Position numbers and translations under genes: made by a program. Below the pieces are notes generated by a model. It made no database searches and was not told where the DNA came from. It worked only from the letters and a program-made list of their open reading frames with translations. A DNA stretch of 12,007 bases from Deltaproteobacteria bacterium RBG_13_61_14 (lineage in GTDB: Bacteria > RBG-13-61-14): assembly GCA_001797815.1 (NCBI GenBank), contig MGQK01000009.1, forward strand, positions 21,385-33,391, given 5' to 3'. Below, in pieces: positions 1,873-10,184 of this stretch; the stretch's first letter is position 1, and each line of letters opens with the position of its first letter.

Positions 1873-2679
1873 TTGGTCAAGCCGCGGGTGTTGGTGCTGA
1901 CGGGTTACGGGATCAACTGTGACGAGGAGAGCGAGTTCGCTTTCAACCAGGCCGGAGGCTTGGCCGAGCGGGTGCACATCAACGACCTGATCGCGGGAGT
2001 GAAGCGGCTATCCGATTACCAGATCCTGGTTTTCCCGGGCGGGTTCAGCTTCGGGGATGACGTGGCCTCGGGCAAGGTGCTGGCGCTCCGGGCCAAGGCC
2101 AACCTCGGCGAGCAAATCCTCCGCTTCATCGGCGACGGCAAGTTGATCCTGGGCATCTGCAACGGCTTCCAGGTGATGGCCAAGTTCGGGCTTTTGGCCG
2201 ACGCGGACGGCGACTACCGCAGCCAGCGCCTGACCGTGACCAACAACGACTCCAACCGCTACGAGGACCGCTGGGTATATCTCCGGCGAGTGAGCGACAA
2301 GTGCGTGTGGACCAAAGGGGCGGACCGGATCTATTTGCCGGTGGCGCATGGCGAGGGCAGGTTTTTCGCCGGGGAAGAAGTGGTGGCCGCGATCGAGCGG
2401 AACGACCAGGTCGGGTTCCGCTACGCGGACGAAGACTTTGAGCCGGCCGGGGGCCGCTACCCGCTCAACCCCAACGGCTCGCTCCGCGACATCGCCGGCA
2501 TCTGCGACCCCTCCGGCCGGATCTACGGCATGATGCCCCACCCCGAGCGCTTCCTCCACTTCACCAACCACCCCCGCTGGACCCGGCTCAAGGACCATCT
2601 CCGCCGCGAGGGCAAGCCCATGCCTGAGGCGGGCGACGGACTCCGCATCTTCCAGAACGGTGTCAATTATTTCCGCTGA
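1873..2679 (+). CDS. purQ: Phosphoribosylformylglycinamidine synthase subunit PurQ (glutamine amidotransferase)
   Basis: PurQ is the class I glutaminase that releases ammonia from glutamine for PurL in FGAM synthesis; it acts in the cytosol. The 268-residue length is normal for PurQ, or slightly long. The N-terminal strand RVLVLTGYGINCDEE is typical. FPGGFSFGDD (54-63) is the oxyanion-strand region, and GICNGFQ (94-100) carries the nucleophile Cys96. GMMPHPER (219-226) supplies catalytic His223 and Glu225, so the triad is complete. Translation begins at TTG 1873, supported by AAGGA 8 bases upstream. It follows purL by 46 bases, most of which is a perfect hairpin. The C-terminus ends at a TGA stop (2677-2679) with no clear terminator after it. 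Identity is secure; only the exact start is inferred. Confidence 0.96.
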   Translation: MVKPRVLVLTGYGINCDEESEFAFNQAGGLAERVHINDLIAGVKRLSDYQILVFPGGFSFGDDVASGKVLALRAKANLGEQILRFIGDGKLILGICNGFQVMAKFGLLADADGDYRSQRLTVTNNDSNRYEDRWVYLRRVSDKCVWTKGADRIYLPVAHGEGRFFAGEEVVAAIERNDQVGFRYADEDFEPAGGRYPLNPNGSLRDIAGICDPSGRIYGMMPHPERFLHFTNHPRWTRLKDHLRREGKPMPEAGDGLRIFQNGVNYFR

Positions 2680-2704
2680 AGACGAGGTGTCAAGGTGAAA
2701 AAAT

Positions 2705-2761
2705 CCCGTGAACGTGCCCGTGAACGTATCCGAAAAAGGCATGAGGCATGAGGCAAGAGGC
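2705..2761. repeat. Two adjacent short tandem repeats downstream of purQ
   Basis: CCCGTGAACGTG (2705-2716) is followed directly by CCCGTGAACGTA (2717-2728), matching at 11 of 12 bases. Nine bases later a heptamer runs GGCATGA, GGCATGA, GGCAAGA, GGC (2738-2761). Neither sits in a plausible gene. They begin the repeat-rich 2680-2936 intergenic stretch. Confidence 0.7.
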
Positions 2762-2813
2762 TCGTTACTATACACTGGGCACTACTCCATCCTGAATGAG
2801 GCGCCGGCCAACC

Positions 2814-2839
2814 GAATTAAGTATGGTGTCCCCCGAATT
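2814..2839 (+). repeat. Left inverted repeat bracketing the esterase gene
   Basis: The core AATTAAGTATGGTGTCCCCC (2815-2834) is the exact reverse complement of 4539-4558. Including flanking bases, 25 of 26 positions match (2814-2839 against 4534-4559). The motif's own ends are also complementary (GAATT at 2814-2818, AATTC at 2836-2840), so it can fold weakly on itself. It points inward toward the esterase. A TTGACA hexamer follows at 2846-2851, but I see no good -10 at the proper spacing. Confidence 0.85.
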
Positions 2840-2936
2840 CCCGATTTGACAAAAGGCGCGGTTTAGTGCCAGGATAACCTTCAAACAAGCAGCGGGCGAA
2901 ACCGATCAGGAGATAAAACTCTTTGAGGAGGGGAAA

Positions 2937-4535
2937 ATGAAAAAATTGCTCACGGCTTCTTTGTTGGCGGCACTATCTTTTTCAACCTTTGGCCGCCTGG
3001 CGTGGCCGGCGGATGATCCTTGCGTGAGGCCGGTTTCCAGCCAGCAGGGTCTGATCCGTGGCAAGGCAGACCCGGAGAACCAGGTTTGCGCATGGAAAGG
3101 AATCCCGTATGCCGCGACCCCGGTGGGCGACCTTCGTTTCCGGGCCACCCAGCCGCCCAATCCTCATCCGGGTGTTTTGGACGCTTACGAATTTGGGCCG
3201 GCCTGCCCCCAAGAGCCCAGCCTGCTGGCCGGAGGGGAAATCCAATCGTGCAATGAAGATTGCCTGACGCTCAACATCTGGAGCCCGCAAAAGCCGGGCC
3301 GTTACCCGGTAATGGTCTGGATCCACGGCGGCGGTTTTATCAATGGTTCGGGATCCATTGACCTTTATCATGGGGCGGTTCTCTCCGGGCAAAAAGACGT
3401 GGTGGTGGTGACTCTCAACTATCGCCTGGGCGCGCTCGGCTTTCTTTCTCTGCCGGAACTGGTCCAGGAAGACCCCAACGGCAGCGCCGGCAATTACGGC
3501 ATCCTTGACCAGATCCAGGCGCTGAAATGGGTCCAGCAAAACATCGCCGCCTTTCAGGGAGACCCCGGCAACGTCACCATCTTCGGGCAGTCCGCGGGCG
3601 GGGGGTCCGTGACCATGCTCCTCATTTCGCCGCTGACCCAGGGGCTTTTTCAGCACGCCATCCCCATGAGCGGCGCCATGAACGTGATCGGGAAAAAGGA
3701 AAAAGGATACGAGAGGGGACGGGAGCTGGTCAAGCAGCTCGGCTGCGAGGGAAAGGACCTCCTCCCTTGCCTGCGGGAAAAACCCGCGGACGCCTTCCCG
3801 CCTCGCAGCGCCCTCGGGAAGATTCCGTCCTTCAGCGGCATGGCGGCCGGCTTTTCGCCGAAGGTGGACGGCTACGTCATCACCTGTCAGCCCATCGAGT
3901 GCCTCGAACAGGGGTCCTACAACCGGGTGCCGGTGATGCTCGGATACACGCGCGATGAAATGAAATTTTTCACCATCGCGGCCCCCTATTTCAAATACCT
4001 GCCCAGGTTCATGGTCAACAAATTGATCCGCAAAATGAACGGCGAAGCCGCCGAGGAGGCGCGGGCGCTTTATTCCTACTCCGACTACAAGCGTTCGTCC
4101 GATCTTTTCCTGGCCATGATCACCGATTATTTCACCGGCCCGGGATTCGCCGACGCCGAGGCGCTTTCCCAGCACACCCCGGTCTATTTCTACCGGTTTG
4201 AGTGGGACCACTCCAAGTACGGAGCTTTCCACGGCCTGGACATCCCCTTTGTTTTCGGAAACCGGGATATCCATTCCAAAATCGCAAAAAAGGTTCAGGC
4301 GGAAAGCGACCGGGCCGACGCCGTTGACTTGGCCGAACTGATGATGGCTTACTACACCAATTTCGCCAAAACCGGAGATCCAAACGAGCCCGGCCTGCTT
4401 GACTGGCCGCGGTTCACGACTGAGAAGAAGGAGATAATGTATTTCGACCTTCCGATCACCGTGGCGCCCATCTCGGAAAAAGACCTGGCCCGCTATGAGT
4501 TTTTCGCCGGACAAAGCCGCAAGAGTACGGATTAA
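2937..4535 (+). CDS. Secreted type-B carboxylesterase (alpha/beta-hydrolase)
   Basis: This enzyme is predicted to hydrolyse carboxylic esters; the natural substrate is unknown. Residues 1-25 look like a Sec signal peptide (MKKLL, a hydrophobic stretch to about 19, then WPADD), so it is probably periplasmic or secreted. The type-B family motifs are in order: EDCLTLNIWSP (107-117), oxyanion HGGGF (130-134), NYRLGALGFL (161-170), nucleophile elbow GQSAGG with Ser219, TRDE with Glu341, and AFHGLDIPFVFG with His432. The triad is complete and the 532-residue length is normal. The start is fixed by AGGAGG (2926-2931) 5 bases before ATG 2937. Codons look less GC-biased than in purL/purQ, especially near the 5' end. 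The gene sits exactly between 21-bp inverted repeats, and its TAA stop (4533-4535) lies in the edge of the right repeat. This hints at movement with its flanks. Neighbouring genes give no functional clue. Confidence 0.9.
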   Translation: MKKLLTASLLAALSFSTFGRLAWPADDPCVRPVSSQQGLIRGKADPENQVCAWKGIPYAATPVGDLRFRATQPPNPHPGVLDAYEFGPACPQEPSLLAGGEIQSCNEDCLTLNIWSPQKPGRYPVMVWIHGGGFINGSGSIDLYHGAVLSGQKDVVVVTLNYRLGALGFLSLPELVQEDPNGSAGNYGILDQIQALKWVQQNIAAFQGDPGNVTIFGQSAGGGSVTMLLISPLTQGLFQHAIPMSGAMNVIGKKEKGYERGRELVKQLGCEGKDLLPCLREKPADAFPPRSALGKIPSFSGMAAGFSPKVDGYVITCQPIECLEQGSYNRVPVMLGYTRDEMKFFTIAAPYFKYLPRFMVNKLIRKMNGEAAEEARALYSYSDYKRSSDLFLAMITDYFTGPGFADAEALSQHTPVYFYRFEWDHSKYGAFHGLDIPFVFGNRDIHSKIAKKVQAESDRADAVDLAELMMAYYTNFAKTGDPNEPGLLDWPRFTTEKKEIMYFDLPITVAPISEKDLARYEFFAGQSRKSTD

Positions 4536-4559
4536 TTAGGGGGACACCATACTTAATTC
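4534..4559 (-). repeat. Right inverted repeat bracketing the esterase gene
   Basis: GGGGGACACCATACTTAATT (4539-4558) is the perfect reverse complement of 2815-2834. The match continues to 25 of 26 bases over 4534-4559, and it faces inward. The esterase stop codon TAA (4533-4535) falls at its edge, so this copy supplies or overlaps the end of the reading frame. Confidence 0.85.
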
Positions 4560-4711
4560 CCCTTGAGAGGTTTCGGCCCAGGCTTTTTAGGAGCAGGTTG
4601 GCGCCTTAAACTGGCGGCGGCTGCCGGGTTGGGTGAGATGAAGAGGCAGCCTGGGGCCAGTCTCGGCATGGCAATAACCTACTCAATTTCCGAAGTAAAA
4701 TTCAAGAAAAA

Positions 4712-4734
4712 AATTAGGTATGGTATTCCCCTAA
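4712..4734 (+). repeat. Third, diverged copy of the esterase-flanking repeat
   Basis: AATTAGGTATGGTATTCCCC (4712-4731) followed by TAA matches the right-end consensus with three substitutions in 23 positions. It has the same orientation as the left copy at 2814. It lies about 150 bases outside the bracketed unit, in the 494-base gene-free stretch 4536-5029. Confidence 0.6.
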
Positions 4735-4762
4735 CCCGGCCGAGCCGGAAGCCAAGAAGAGA

Positions 4763-4981
4763 GGAAGAGTCTCACGCCAAGACGCCAAGGCGCGAAAGTT
4801 TAAGCCCCCGGATCTTGGAGACCAGTGCCAGCTTCCTTTCGCTTCTCCTTCCCTGGCCTCGCCGCAAAGCCGGAACAAGTCGCCAAGAAGTTACCCCTTG
4901 GCGTCTTGAGGTTCTTGGTGTCAAGCTCCTTCCTCTTGTTCTTTACTTTAGCGACTTAGCGCCTTGGCGTGAAACTCTTTC
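4763..4981. repeat. 219-bp non-coding element with 36-bp inverted arms
   Basis: The left arm 4763-4798 (contains CACGCCAAGACGCCAAGGCG) and the reverse complement of the right arm 4946-4981 (contains CACGCCAAGGCGCTAAGTCG) agree at 30 of 36 positions. The interior has another small hairpin, CGCCAAG (4881-4887) with CTTGGCG (4897-4903), and further degenerate CGCCAAG-type units. No plausible gene is inside. It resembles dispersed CGCCAAG-type repeats seen in many environmental bacterial genomes. It may be a MITE-like element or a relic; its origin is unknown. Confidence 0.65.
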
Positions 4982-5009
4982 TTGTTTATTTCCCCGGATT
5001 AACTATAAT
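4982..5009 (+). promoter_or_regulatory. Candidate sigma-70 promoter for the acyl-CoA synthetase gene
   Basis: A perfect TATAAT lies at 5004-5009, with TTGTTT (4982-4987, three of six bases of TTGACA) 16 bases upstream. Transcription would start near 5016. That places GTG 5015 at or before the transcript start and favours ATG 5030 as the true start. The -35 region begins immediately after the right arm of the 219-bp repeat. Confidence 0.45.
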
Positions 5010-5029
5010 TTTTCGTGGAAAGAGCAATC

Positions 5030-6430
5030 ATGAGTAGCGCTTCAGACTTACGGCCGTTTTTCGAGCCCCGCTCCATCGCCGTGATCGGCGCCCGGCGCAA
5101 CCCCGGCTTCGGCTTCGGCATCCCGCTCTTCCTCGAACGCCACGGCTTCGGCGACAAGCTTTTCCTGGTCACACCGACTCCGGGCAACCTGCACGGCCGG
5201 CCGGTCTATAGCCGGGCCAGCGAGCTCCCGGAGCCGGTGGAGCTCGGCATCGTGATCGTGCCGGCCTCGGCCACCCCGGAGGTGCTGGAAGACTGCGCGA
5301 AGAAAGGCCCGCGGCACCTGATCCTGGAAAATGCCGGGTTCAGTGAAACCGGGCCCGAGGGCGCGGCCCTGGAAGCGCGTTGCCGCAAACTGGCAAAGGA
5401 CCTGGGCCTGCGGGTGATCGGGCCGAACTGCGTGGGGGTGGTCAACACCCAGAACCGCTTCACGTCCACCGAGGTGATGGAGGAATGCCTGATCCCGGGG
5501 CACCTGGGGATCATCGCCCAGAGCGGGGTGTTCGGGAACATCCTCTTGGACTGGCTGCCGGAGGAGCACCTGCGCATCAGCAAGGCTATCACCATCGGCA
5601 ACCGCCTGGACGTGAACGAGTGCGACCTGCTGGATTACCTGGCCGCAGACCCGGCCACCCGGGTGATCGTGATCTACCTGGAAGGCGCGCAGGACGGGCC
5701 GCGCTTGCTCGCCACCTTGAGGCGGGTGACCGCGCGGAAGCCGGTGCTGGTCCTGAAGAGCGGGCGCACCCCGGCGGGCCAGGCCGCCACGGTTTCGCAC
5801 ACCGGGAGCCTGAGCGGGGAGGACGCGGTTTACGAGGCGGTATTCCGGCAGGGAGGCGCGATCCGGGCGCGCGGTGTGCACGAGCTTTTCGATCTGGCCA
5901 AGGCGCTTTCCACCCAGCCGCCCATGAGAGGCAACCGGGTGGCGATTGTCACGTCCTCGGGCTCGCTCGGCGCGCTGGTGATTGACGCCTGCCTGGACCT
6001 GGGCCTGGTCGCGGCCGCCCTCGCGGAAGAGACGGTGGCCAAGGTGCGGCGGCAGGCGCCCTCCTGGATGAACGTCAAGAACCCGCTGGACGTGGGTCCT
6101 TCGGGCCAGTTCCGCGTGGCCCTGGAAGCGGTGCTCAGCGACCCGGGGGTGGACGGGGTCATCGCCATCCCGGTGGTCCCGTTCTCGGTGGTGCGAGCGA
6201 TGGAGCCGATCGGGTTTACCGCCGGTCTGTGGATGGGCGAGATCGCGAAGCTGTGGCAGGCTTCGGGAAAGCGCAAACCTCTGGTGGTGGGCCTGGTGGG
6301 GAATTCCGCCTGGGTGGATCGGATCCGAAAATTATGCGGCGACGAAGTGCCGGTGATGGATTTGCCGGAGCATGCGGCTCTGGCGCTGCGGGCGCTGAGT
6401 CTAGGAAACCATACCCATTCCGAGGAATAG
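5030..6430 (+). CDS. ADP-forming acyl-CoA synthetase (acetate--CoA ligase type) alpha subunit
   Basis: This is the alpha-type subunit of NDP-forming acyl-CoA synthetases, which interconvert acyl-CoA + ADP + Pi with acid + CoA + ATP. Numbered from ATG 5030 (466 residues), a Rossmann CoA-binding domain opens with RSIAVIGARRNPGFGFG (about 14-30). The ligase-CoA domain has GIIAQSGVFGN (about 160-170). VSHTGSLSG carries the predicted phosphohistidine at 257, the same number as the phospho-His of the Pyrococcus furiosus alpha subunit. A second flavodoxin-like domain starts near RVAIVTSSGSLG. The ATP-grasp (beta) domain is absent, so a separate beta subunit is needed, and none adjoins. The ATG is preceded by GGAAAGAG (5017-5024); GTG 5015 is an alternative start adding five residues, but it lies at the predicted transcription start. 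The gene is alone on its strand, between a repeat island and a convergent gene. Substrate cannot be read from the sequence. Confidence 0.9.
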   Translation: MSSASDLRPFFEPRSIAVIGARRNPGFGFGIPLFLERHGFGDKLFLVTPTPGNLHGRPVYSRASELPEPVELGIVIVPASATPEVLEDCAKKGPRHLILENAGFSETGPEGAALEARCRKLAKDLGLRVIGPNCVGVVNTQNRFTSTEVMEECLIPGHLGIIAQSGVFGNILLDWLPEEHLRISKAITIGNRLDVNECDLLDYLAADPATRVIVIYLEGAQDGPRLLATLRRVTARKPVLVLKSGRTPAGQAATVSHTGSLSGEDAVYEAVFRQGGAIRARGVHELFDLAKALSTQPPMRGNRVAIVTSSGSLGALVIDACLDLGLVAAALAEETVAKVRRQAPSWMNVKNPLDVGPSGQFRVALEAVLSDPGVDGVIAIPVVPFSVVRAMEPIGFTAGLWMGEIAKLWQASGKRKPLVVGLVGNSAWVDRIRKLCGDEVPVMDLPEHAALALRALSLGNHTHSEE

Positions 6431-6507: not shown

Positions 6508-7914
6508 TTAAGCAGCCTGCACAATCTGTTTCAAGCTGGTCTGGCCCAGAAGGTCATGGTTGCTCTCCCGGACCTGCTGAAAGATTTCATCCACTTGACT
6601 GGGCGCTTCGGGCAGAGGGGGCTGGAAACGATGATGACCTTTCAACTCCACGGCCTGGTAAATGTTGCCGCCCACGGCCTCGATCACCTGGGCCAGGGTG
6701 ATCTGGTTTAGTTCCCGGTTGGGTTGGTAGATCTCCTGGGGGATATTTCTCCCTTCCGGGCCGCTGATCCGGACCAGGATCTTTTGATTCACGAGGGCGC
6801 TGATCACCCCGCGCAAGCGGGGGATGGCCACCCCGAAGCGGCCGGCCAGGTCGTTCAGGCAAGGCAGGTCCTCCCCCCGCTCGTAGTGAAAGGCGATCCG
6901 CTCCATGACCCGGCAGGCCAAATAGGCATCGGTCAAGGGCCGGGATTCCCGGGGGTCCACCCGCAACACGTGCCGGAAGTTCTGGATAATATAGTTGAGC
7001 TGGACTCCGAAGAGGACGATGATCCAGATCAGATACATCCAGATCAGGAACACCAGGAAGACGGCCAGGGAGGCATAAATTTTTTCGCGGGAGAGCGCCA
7101 TGGAGCCGGCCCAGTAGCCAAAGCCCCACTTGGTGGTTTCCCAGCCCAGGCCGGCGATCGCGGCCGAGAACAGGGCCGGCCGGGTCTGCACCCGGGTATT
7201 GGGGACCGTGATGTAGAAGATCGTCAGCGAGAACCAGATCAGCAAGAAAGGCACCAGGTAAGCGAGCAGGCCATGCAGCCAGAGCAAGACCTGGCTGAGC
7301 TGGCTGGTGATGGGGGTCACGGCCGCGAACGGGACCCCGCTCAGGCTCGCGATCAGGGTGTGGATCTGGACCTTGGCGGTGAGAAAGAGGGACAGCCCGA
7401 TCAGGATCGGGCCCCAGATCATGATCGCGGTGAAGATGATAAACCGCTGCACCAGCGAGCGCGCCTGGTCCACCTTCCAGATCTGATTGATGGACTGCTC
7501 GATGGCGTTGAGCAGGAAAATCGAGGTGATGAGCAGGAGCACGAACCCGATGTAGGTCCCGGTCTTGGCCCGGTCAATGAAGGTATTGAGCTGGTTCAGG
7601 ATCAGCTCGGCCAGTTGCGACTCGGGCATCAGGTAGCGGAACAAGTATTCCCGCACGCTCGCTTCCAGGTCTACATCGGCGCTCCCCTTCAACAGGGTGA
7701 GGAACGAAAAGAAAAAAGCCAGGGCCGGCACCAGCGAGATCAGGCTGCGATAGGCCAGCGCGTTCGCCTGATACTGGACCCGGTTTTCGCGGAACACCTG
7801 CACCGTCCGCCGCAGGACCCAATAGGACAGGCGCAGGCCCTCGGCCCAGACCCGCGGCCGGGTCGGGTCCCAGCGCAGCATTCGCCAGCGGGGTCGGGCG
7901 GGCTTGGTCACCAT
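6508..7914 (-). CDS. YihY/BrkB family membrane protein with C-terminal winged-helix-like domain
   Basis: This is an integral inner-membrane protein of the YihY/virulence factor BrkB family, once misannotated as RNase BN; its function is not established. Numbered from TTG 7950, about six hydrophobic segments are visible near 69-87, 132-151, 169-191, 220-247, 258-276 and 291-318. The family signature LLNAIEQSINQIWKV lies at 146-160. After about residue 340 comes a soluble tail containing LPCLNDLAGRFGVAIPRLRG, which looks like a winged helix-turn-helix. Start choice is uncertain. ATG 7914 is given here (468 residues) but has GAGGG only one base upstream. GTG 7911 would give 4-base spacing. TTG 7950 (480 residues) overlaps the upstream GH2 stop as TTGA and would suit translational coupling. 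It is the last gene of the minus-strand block and converges on the acyl-CoA synthetase gene across 77 bases that lack a clear T-tract terminator. Confidence 0.88.
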   Translation of the reverse strand: MVTKPARPRWRMLRWDPTRPRVWAEGLRLSYWVLRRTVQVFRENRVQYQANALAYRSLISLVPALAFFFSFLTLLKGSADVDLEASVREYLFRYLMPESQLAELILNQLNTFIDRAKTGTYIGFVLLLITSIFLLNAIEQSINQIWKVDQARSLVQRFIIFTAIMIWGPILIGLSLFLTAKVQIHTLIASLSGVPFAAVTPITSQLSQVLLWLHGLLAYLVPFLLIWFSLTIFYITVPNTRVQTRPALFSAAIAGLGWETTKWGFGYWAGSMALSREKIYASLAVFLVFLIWMYLIWIIVLFGVQLNYIIQNFRHVLRVDPRESRPLTDAYLACRVMERIAFHYERGEDLPCLNDLAGRFGVAIPRLRGVISALVNQKILVRISGPEGRNIPQEIYQPNRELNQITLAQVIEAVGGNIYQAVELKGHHRFQPPLPEAPSQVDEIFQQVRESNHDLLGQTSLKQIVQAA

Positions 7915-7946
7915 GCCCTCAATTGAACCGGAATTGCGATTCGCTG

Positions 7947-10184
7947 TCAACGGTACCTACCCAACATCGCGTTTAAAATATAGCGCGGGAAAGTCGAAAG
8001 TGCAAAGGCCAGGTGGGATCTCTCGGCCTGGAGCGCTCGGCCCATCTGCACCCAGGCGTTCCTCGATCGGCCCCCAGGCGGGGTAATGAAAAAATCAAGC
8101 TCTTCCGTGTCCAGCAGCTCTTCGCCCTGAAACAGGCCCACTTTCAGGCAATAGTTTCCGGGCATGGTGTCGGAAGCTAAAGGCGGCATGAGCTCCAGCA
8201 CCGGCCGGGAGCTGTCCGGCTCGACCGCGATCTCCTCCTCTCCATGAAAAAGTTCGCGGCCGTCGTTCGAACTCGCCTGCCAGGCGATGCGGCCATTCTC
8301 CAAGCGGTCGTGGCAGTCGTTGATCACCCAGACTCGGCAGAAGAATTCCCCGCCCTGGTCAAAGCAAGGGTTCCAGTAAAGCGGGGCCAGGAAGCCGGAG
8401 CGCCGCGGCCGGCGCCAGAGATCGAGGCTGAGCTTTTTCGGCTGCGAGGCCAATGCCACGGCCGCGTGGGCGAGCTTGGGCCGGCGCTCGTAGTCCACGA
8501 TGGACCACGAGATCGAGGGCCAGGCGTCCACAAAGGTGAAGAGGCAATAGCCGAAGGTCCGGCCCTTGCCCCGGCGGAAGGCCTGGATGGCGAAGCTGAG
8601 CAGTTCGGCCTGGTAGCGCTGGCTGCTCTCGATCATTTCTTCGAGCGACCGGAAGGGCTTCCCGATCTGGAAAAGGAGACCCTGGAAGTTGTGGTAGTCC
8701 CAGTCCGGGCTGGCCGGCCAGCTTTGGTCCCCCAGCTCTTTCCAGAGCGCGGCCCCGGGAGAGGGGAGCGACTGGGCGCCGAACTCGGTCGGAAAAGGCC
8801 GGCCGGGCAAAGCCGCGAACCCGAGGCGGGTCCCCATATACCAGCCGAAGAAGGGGTGCTCCACCACCGAGGAAGATTTTTTGATCCGCCGGCCGCTGCG
8901 CTCGACCTCGGCCACCGCCTGCTTGAGAAGCTGATCCAGCCGGCGGTTGCCGGGCCGGAACGGTTCGCAGTGGCAGCACCAGAGATAGATGCTGGGGTGG
9001 TTGTGGAGCAGGCGCACCATCTCCTGGATCTGCCGGCCGGCCTCGGCCCGGGAGGCCGCCGAGGTATCGTAGTCCCAGAGAAGAGCAAAGTCCTGCCACA
9101 GCAAAATGCCCTGCTCGTCGCACAACTCGTAGAACCGCTTCGGTTCCACGTGGTAGGGGATGCGGAGGCTGTTCAAGTTCGCGGCCTTGACCAGCGAAAG
9201 ATCCTGCCCCAGCCGCTCCTCGCCCATCTCCGAGAGCCACAGGCTCGAGAGATAGCAGGACCCGCGCAGATAGACCCGCCGGCCGTTCAAGTAGATGCCA
9301 TCGTCCTTCCAGGCAATGGTGCGGAAGCCGATCCGGTCTCGGCCTTGGTCCGAAACCTCCCCCTGGATCTTCACCTCAAGCAAAAGCGAATAAAGGTTCG
9401 GCTGGCCCAGGTCATAGGTCCACCAGAGCTTCGGGTCCTGGACTTCCCCGGCCAGGCTGATCCGGTTCGCGCCCGGTTGCAACGAGATCTTTTGGGAGAG
9501 CAACAAAAAGGAAGGACCGGAGAAGGTGGCCGGCTCCAGCCGGCAGACCAGCTCGGCCTCCGAGGCCTCTCCGCCGCGGAAATGGACCTCGACCTCCAGG
9601 TCCACTCGCCACGCGCCCCCGCGCTCCCTCGGAGCCGCGACCATCCGGCTGATCCGGGCCGGGCCGGCGGCGTGGAGCGAGACCGATCCCCAAATCCCGC
9701 CGGAACCGCGCTCCTGGCCGCGCCGGCTCCAGCCGCCGGGCCGCATGTCCCAGTGCTGGAGCCCGCCCTTGAAGATGGTTTTGTTAAAAGGGAAGCCGGG
9801 ATCGAGCGGCGCGTCCACCTCCACCGCGATCAGGTTCTCGCCCGGCCGCAGCCGCTCGGTCGCCTCAAACTCAAACGGCGCAAAGTAGCCGGTGTGGCTG
9901 CCGAGGAAATGGCCGTTGAGCCAGACCCGGGCGCGGTAATCCACGGCTTCGAAGCGGAGGAACACCCGCTCATGAGGCGGGGCGAGGTCGCGGGCAAAGC
10001 GCCGGCGGAACCACACCTTGCCGGAATAGTCGAGCCCGCGCAGATACCAGTTGGCCGGGAGTTCCATCTCCGGCCAGGAGGAATCGTCCAGGCTCTCCTG
10101 GAAAAAGCCCCGGGCCTCGCCCGCGCCGTTCGGATCAGGCGAATAGCGCCAGCGGCCGTCAAGCGAAGTGCTGGTCAAAGGCAT
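7947..10184 (-). CDS. Glycoside hydrolase family 2 protein (beta-mannosidase-like), cytosolic
   Basis: This is a putative exo-acting retaining glycosidase. The N-terminal jelly-roll sugar-binding domain (about 8-175) contains ANWYLRGLDYSGKVWFRR and ARVWLNGHFLGSHTGYFAPF. An Ig-like domain follows, with PKLWWTYDLGQPNLYSL near 252-268 and IGFRTIAW near 286-293. The TIM barrel then has VYLRGSCY (305-312), SLRIPYH and LLWQDF. The nucleophile is probably Glu468 in PTEFGAQSLPS, resembling the SEFGFQS type of beta-mannosidases. The acid/base is probably Glu408 in LWCCHCEP. The Asn that normally precedes this Glu is Cys407, which is unusual. (Residue numbers count the TTG codon before ATG 10184.) Length, about 745, fits GH2. 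No signal peptide is visible. No Shine-Dalgarno site is seen before ATG 10184; a hairpin sits just upstream. It lies 39 bases after the MBL gene, and its TGA overlaps the possible TTG start of yihY. Substrate is not resolvable. Confidence 0.87.
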   Translation of the reverse strand: MPLTSTSLDGRWRYSPDPNGAGEARGFFQESLDDSSWPEMELPANWYLRGLDYSGKVWFRRRFARDLAPPHERVFLRFEAVDYRARVWLNGHFLGSHTGYFAPFEFEATERLRPGENLIAVEVDAPLDPGFPFNKTIFKGGLQHWDMRPGGWSRRGQERGSGGIWGSVSLHAAGPARISRMVAAPRERGGAWRVDLEVEVHFRGGEASEAELVCRLEPATFSGPSFLLLSQKISLQPGANRISLAGEVQDPKLWWTYDLGQPNLYSLLLEVKIQGEVSDQGRDRIGFRTIAWKDDGIYLNGRRVYLRGSCYLSSLWLSEMGEERLGQDLSLVKAANLNSLRIPYHVEPKRFYELCDEQGILLWQDFALLWDYDTSAASRAEAGRQIQEMVRLLHNHPSIYLWCCHCEPFRPGNRRLDQLLKQAVAEVERSGRRIKKSSSVVEHPFFGWYMGTRLGFAALPGRPFPTEFGAQSLPSPGAALWKELGDQSWPASPDWDYHNFQGLLFQIGKPFRSLEEMIESSQRYQAELLSFAIQAFRRGKGRTFGYCLFTFVDAWPSISWSIVDYERRPKLAHAAVALASQPKKLSLDLWRRPRRSGFLAPLYWNPCFDQGGEFFCRVWVINDCHDRLENGRIAWQASSNDGRELFHGEEEIAVEPDSSRPVLELMPPLASDTMPGNYCLKVGLFQGEELLDTEELDFFITPPGGRSRNAWVQMGRALQAERSHLAFALSTFPRYILNAMLGRYR

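Follow-up and report, generated by a model that had tools for sequence, protein, structure and literature searches.

Organization of the esterase locus

The window, i.e., the whole stretch of 12,007 nucleotides that was analyzed, contains a gene for a secreted carboxylesterase located between purQ and an acyl-CoA synthetase gene and bracketed by a short repeat present as two inverted copies (Table 1). The genome of the window is referred to as G000, and contigs are written C46, C99, and so on. The esterase reading frame is complete, with a ribosome site (GAGGAGGGG) and a hydrophobic N terminus, in agreement with an earlier note on this DNA that placed one complete secreted carboxylesterase with its own ribosome site between the repeats. 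The same note described a 21-bp inverted match, 25/26 when extended, and this was borne out by repeat search: the arms of 26 nt are 96% complementary, with 25 of 26 nucleotides matched and 21 nt exact. As had also been stated, the right arm extends into the stop codon of the esterase gene (positions 4533-4535). The arms face inward and are 1.7 kb apart, so they do not constitute a closely spaced, hairpin-forming REPIN doublet.

Table 1. Features of the esterase locus. Positions are those of the window.
Feature	Position	Strand	Evidence and remarks
REP-like terminal repeat, left	2814..2839	+	Right-end orientation, directed at the esterase; repeat search and mismatch scan
Secreted type-B carboxylesterase, 532 aa	2937..4535	+	Pfam COesterase, E=1.6e-118; sister of the G002:C414 esterase
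REP-like terminal repeat, right	4534..4559	-	Right end of the deleted rayt copy; overlaps the esterase stop codon
Internally deleted rayt reading frame, MPRLAPGCLF...KKPGPKPLKGN*	4555..4671	-	Fusion of the 5'- and 3'-terminal parts of the C46 rayt; DNA match and alignment
Former rayt promoter/leader region	4672..4711	-	Aligns with the leader of the C46 rayt
Degenerate left-end copy of the repeat (AATTAGGTATGGTATTCCCC)	4712..4736	+	3 mismatches; 2 relative to the R-containing pattern

A mismatch scan of positions 2600-5050, allowing up to 6 mismatches, found no inverted partner of the left repeat upstream in the gap between purQ and the esterase gene. The surroundings on its left-hand side consist of other short intergenic repeats of G000, and the left repeat is best read as a REP singlet. 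A third, degenerate copy of the motif was located to the right of the esterase gene, with the match at 4712-4730. The intergenic region at 4760-5010 contains imperfect copies of phrases like CGCCAAGGCGC and CTTGGCGT, which is typical of the mosaic intergenic repeats of G000. Further downstream, positions 6508-7950 encode a BrkB-like membrane protein, the C-terminal stretch of which matches the Rrf2 regulator family.

The esterase gene has relatives without repeats

The GC content at third codon positions was 0.74 for the esterase gene compared to 0.84-0.91 for the seven other window genes measured, and the less GC-biased codon choice noted earlier thus holds. This value is not unusual for the family, because the related esterase on C67 of G000 has 0.757 and the ortholog in G002 has 0.77. 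Eleven esterase matches were found in G000 and 15 in each of the two same-order genomes, G001 and G002. In the tree the window esterase groups with that of G002:C414 (support 100/99). At up to one mismatch the repeat motif was absent from both G001 and G002, and thus from the vicinity of the G002 ortholog, and it was found beside none of the other 10 esterase matches in G000. Taken together, the ortholog in a motif-free genome and the lack of motifs beside the other G000 esterases indicate that the gene does not depend on the repeats. We rejected the esterase as recent foreign cargo, given the ortholog in G002, a family of 11-15 members per genome and a codon composition within the family range.

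An apparent conservation of synteny between the esterase and acyl-CoA synthetase genes in G002:C414 was dropped, as the synthetase there is a 34% paralog and the better match to the window gene (50%) is found elsewhere (C453). The purQ gene is followed by a transporter gene in G002 and the G001 contig ends soon after purQ, so that synteny at purQ says nothing on insertion in either genome.

The repeat motif belongs to a Y1/RAYT transposase family

The motif AATTAAGTATGGTGTCCCC (core motif AATTARGTATGGTGTCCCC) was searched throughout the 4.74 Mb of G000, as the earlier note had proposed. It was present in 77 copies at up to three mismatches, while a reversed control pattern gave none. The pair around the esterase gene is therefore not a chance match. 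Y1_Tnp matches were found 19 times in G000. An intact rayt gene on C46 (L054:6513-7178) matched Y1_Tnp above the cut-off (E=3.8e-12), and its closest NCBIfam model was REP_Tyr_transpos at 77 bits, just below the cut-off of 80. Inverted motif copies lie upstream of its start, and the first bases of another copy contain its stop codon. When the C46 protein was searched against 84,980 species genomes, 43 loci were obtained. Most of the better-matching relatives have, some 50-60 bp upstream of the start codon, an end that is identical or closely related (GGGGACACCATACTTAATT, or similar to GGGGACAGTATACTTATT); the inverse of this end is located no more than a few bases from the stop codon. Relatives with this layout include members of the Desulfobacterota (titled Deltaproteobacteria), Riflebacteria, Tectomicrobia, and Omnitrophota, and their end sequences have partly diverged. 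Elements of a Y1/RAYT transposase family have the motif as their terminal repeat; the earlier guess that the ends belong to such an enzyme encoded elsewhere in the genome is thereby supported by the C46 gene and by relatives in other phyla bounded by the same ends.

The arrangement resembles the rayt genes flanked by REPs described by Nunvar et al. (2010; PMC2817692) in that a short intergenic repeat dispersed over the genome flanks a Y1 tyrosine transposase gene in two inverted copies. It differs from that system in three respects: none of the aligned copies has the GTAG/GTGG head, nor is a single repeat palindromic; the rayt stop codon lies within or directly next to the right end; and the repeat sequence is common to several phyla. 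The motif sequence had no match in the literature searched. Inverted doublets of REPs (REPINs), of which REP singlets are viewed as leftovers, were described by Bertels and Rainey (2011; PMC3116915). Comparable doublets, 22-50 bp apart and forming long hairpins, are the dominant form of the motif in several host genomes, among them G065 and G067, whereas singles outnumber doublets in G000, where many singles border AT-rich genes. Folding energies of the inverted doublets as single-stranded DNA were -20 to -21 kcal/mol (z about -9), whereas single copies fold no better than shuffled sequence.

The folding results also bear on whether the inverted pair could serve the esterase gene as a terminator or in regulation. 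The overlap of the right arm with the stop codon would fit such a role, but neither single copy forms a hairpin by this measure and the motif occurs at 77 places in unrelated contexts. A hairpin formed by single copies was accordingly rejected, and we regard a terminator or regulatory function of the pair as highly improbable.

Tandem arrays with a unit of 6-11 bp, such as CCCCCGAATACCCCCGAATACCCC, are often present in the flanks immediately outside the element ends (L151-L188), in G000 for example at the motif copies C82:43054, C60:25631, and C4:13332. Such arrays are about 15-fold enriched (17.8% compared to 1.2% of random windows from the same loci). Different genomes have different units, and in some cases the two sides of an element differ as well. 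In the unrelated genome G037 a longer composite with several motif copies at similar spacing was observed at C28:266-583, C95:70747-71031, and C151:8444-8651.

A deleted rayt copy abuts the esterase stop codon

Positions 4534-4742 align with the leader and first codons, and then with the last codons, of the C46 rayt gene. The reading-frame DNA matches C46:40472-40583 with 70% identity over about 100 bp (E=5e-7) and C99 with 86% over 56 bp. Read on the minus strand from 4736 to 4534, the segment comprises the degenerate left end, a promoter-like leader, ATGCCGAGACTGG..., a short frame ending in ...KKPGPKPLKGN*, and the right end. The region from about 4534 to 4736 is therefore an internally deleted rayt copy, which is located outside the esterase gene and adjoins the stop codon of the latter with its right end. 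The earlier statement that no transposase is enclosed was correct for the interval itself, but missed the remnants immediately outside it on the right side. Like the MITEs of IS200/IS605-type elements, this copy retains both ends while most of the transposase gene is lost. It differs from them in being a single copy: no other copy of the derivative was found in G000, and C99 has only the right end in common with it.

Inward-facing motif pairs are in excess genome-wide

Neighboring motif pairs 300-3000 bp apart were more frequent in G000 than expected from uniform placement (19 compared to 3.3). Over the same range of gaps in the whole of G000 and G037, 14 pairs faced inward, none outward, and 11 were direct (P=0.0009 for the inward count under 1:2:1). 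The lack of outward pairs at this distance is partly expected, as outward pairs correspond to the elements as such, which span only a short distance; 12 outward pairs of less than 300 bp were found in G000. Similarly, any gene with a complete element on either side is necessarily bracketed inward. In 1.41 Mb of sampled contigs there were 10 inward pairs, compared to 2.5 expected when placement was restricted to AT-rich DNA (maximum 7 in 400 trials); these contigs were chosen partly for holding motifs, which inflates clustering there, while the orientation count covers the whole genome.

The inward intervals of G000 mostly contain single AT-rich genes, with a GC content mostly of 0.33-0.47 compared to 0.61 for the sampled genome. 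The values were 0.33 for both C41 and C60, 0.34 (multi-gene) and 0.40 for the two on C125, 0.36 for C121, 0.37 for C99 (several short genes), 0.40 for C109, 0.43 for C46, and 0.47 for C53. The esterase interval has a GC content of 0.58, the highest of the 10 inward intervals, and is the least foreign in composition. In G069 and G062, single-gene brackets with a GC content of 0.37 are located beside rayt, and G037 has brackets of 0.40, 0.42, and 0.44 together with one of 0.54. The gene alone between the two inward copies on C109 (L061:5537-6988) encodes a SIR2-like protein that is possibly defense-related. For the G069 bracket an empty-site search in 76 family genomes found the modules separately and no empty site, and the bracketed gene was absent among the matches listed.

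A different layout was observed at C65:25954-26715 and C65:31908-32773 (L058) and at C44:797-2312 (L053), where three different genes lie between two common modules, a left one that spans about 110 bp and contains promoter-like boxes, and a right one. The orientation is direct at these loci and the cassette-like layout is suggestive.

A more general cause of the genome-wide pattern may be that accessory DNA or AT-rich intergenic DNA tolerates insertions and for this reason comes to be bordered by the repeats, so that genes located there become bracketed. We give this explanation about even odds, and it is compatible with the reading of the esterase locus preferred below. Consistent with it, 34 of 51 motif copies were located within or at most 200 bp from AT-rich segments, compared to 6.5 expected. 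Insertion tolerance explains part of the AT-rich pattern, because unrelated intergenic repeat families of G000 also border AT-rich DNA, although less strongly (10-56% of copies compared to 7% of random points). However, the motif exceeds these families (65%, and 72% for solo copies), and tolerance alone does not produce the inward bias. Inward brackets around single genes recur as a real pattern that is only partly explained.

Origin of the bracket around the esterase gene

The most likely explanation, to which we assign a probability of roughly 0.7, is that an inherited esterase gene lies by coincidence between two separate remnants of a single RAYT/REPIN-type element family. An element consisting of left end, rayt, and right end on the minus strand is located to the right, between the esterase and acyl-CoA synthetase genes; most of its transposase is deleted, and about 200 bp are left, with the right end against the esterase stop codon. 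The single end observed between purQ and the esterase gene is probably a leftover of another element or REPIN. Judging from the family, spread is likely to occur by single-strand cut-and-paste catalyzed by the Y1 tyrosine enzyme, which would recognize the hairpin of inverted ends and insert into intergenic DNA. The esterase gene need not move along with the repeats. What speaks against this explanation is that inward brackets are commoner than expected, an excess which independent insertion alone does not predict.

The earlier note had proposed that the esterase is the cargo of a small non-autonomous unit. On this view, the esterase would lie between inward RAYT ends and, as with other single genes of G000, either the RAYT enzyme or recombination between repeats would have moved it. 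The significant inward excess, the AT-rich genes that such pairs enclose in G000, and the AT-rich brackets in G069, G062, and G037 agree with this. Against it, the esterase interval is the least AT-rich of its kind and the ortholog in G002 exists without motifs, as do the other 10 esterases of G000. Furthermore, the right repeat forms the 3' terminus of the deleted rayt lying outside, so that the ends are in inside-out order around the esterase: the gene is preceded by a right end and followed by the right end of the neighbor, whereas the autonomous order would have the left end before the cargo and the right end after it. A second copy of the repeat-esterase-repeat block was not found in G000 or in its same-order relatives G001 and G002. 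Cargo status of the esterase is thus disfavored, and we consider movement of this kind unlikely. The bracketing idea stands in so far as inward brackets around single genes are in excess, but not for the esterase as cargo; two insertions of a common repeat, which the note gave as its main alternative, fit better.

In a broader form, ends of this cross-phylum RAYT family would delimit single-gene cassettes, with foreign genes being gained or exchanged between inward ends through inside-out action of the RAYT enzyme or through recombination between repeats. This reading, with the esterase as one such cassette, is quite doubtful, and any mobility of the inward intervals is hypothetical. The bracket resembles a composite transposon in that a gene is located between two inverted element ends, but its ends are inside-out when compared to those of the autonomous element, and it shows no sign of co-movement.

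On the preferred reading, i.e., two remnants beside an inherited gene, a striking bracket is explained as two ends of a RAYT/REPIN-type family that lacks the usual GTAG head and occurs in several phyla. The analysis also exposed a testable genome-wide pattern in which inward ends enclose single, mostly AT-rich genes above chance placement. If a gene and both ends are found to appear together in close strains, a role of RAYT in gene acquisition would become directly testable.
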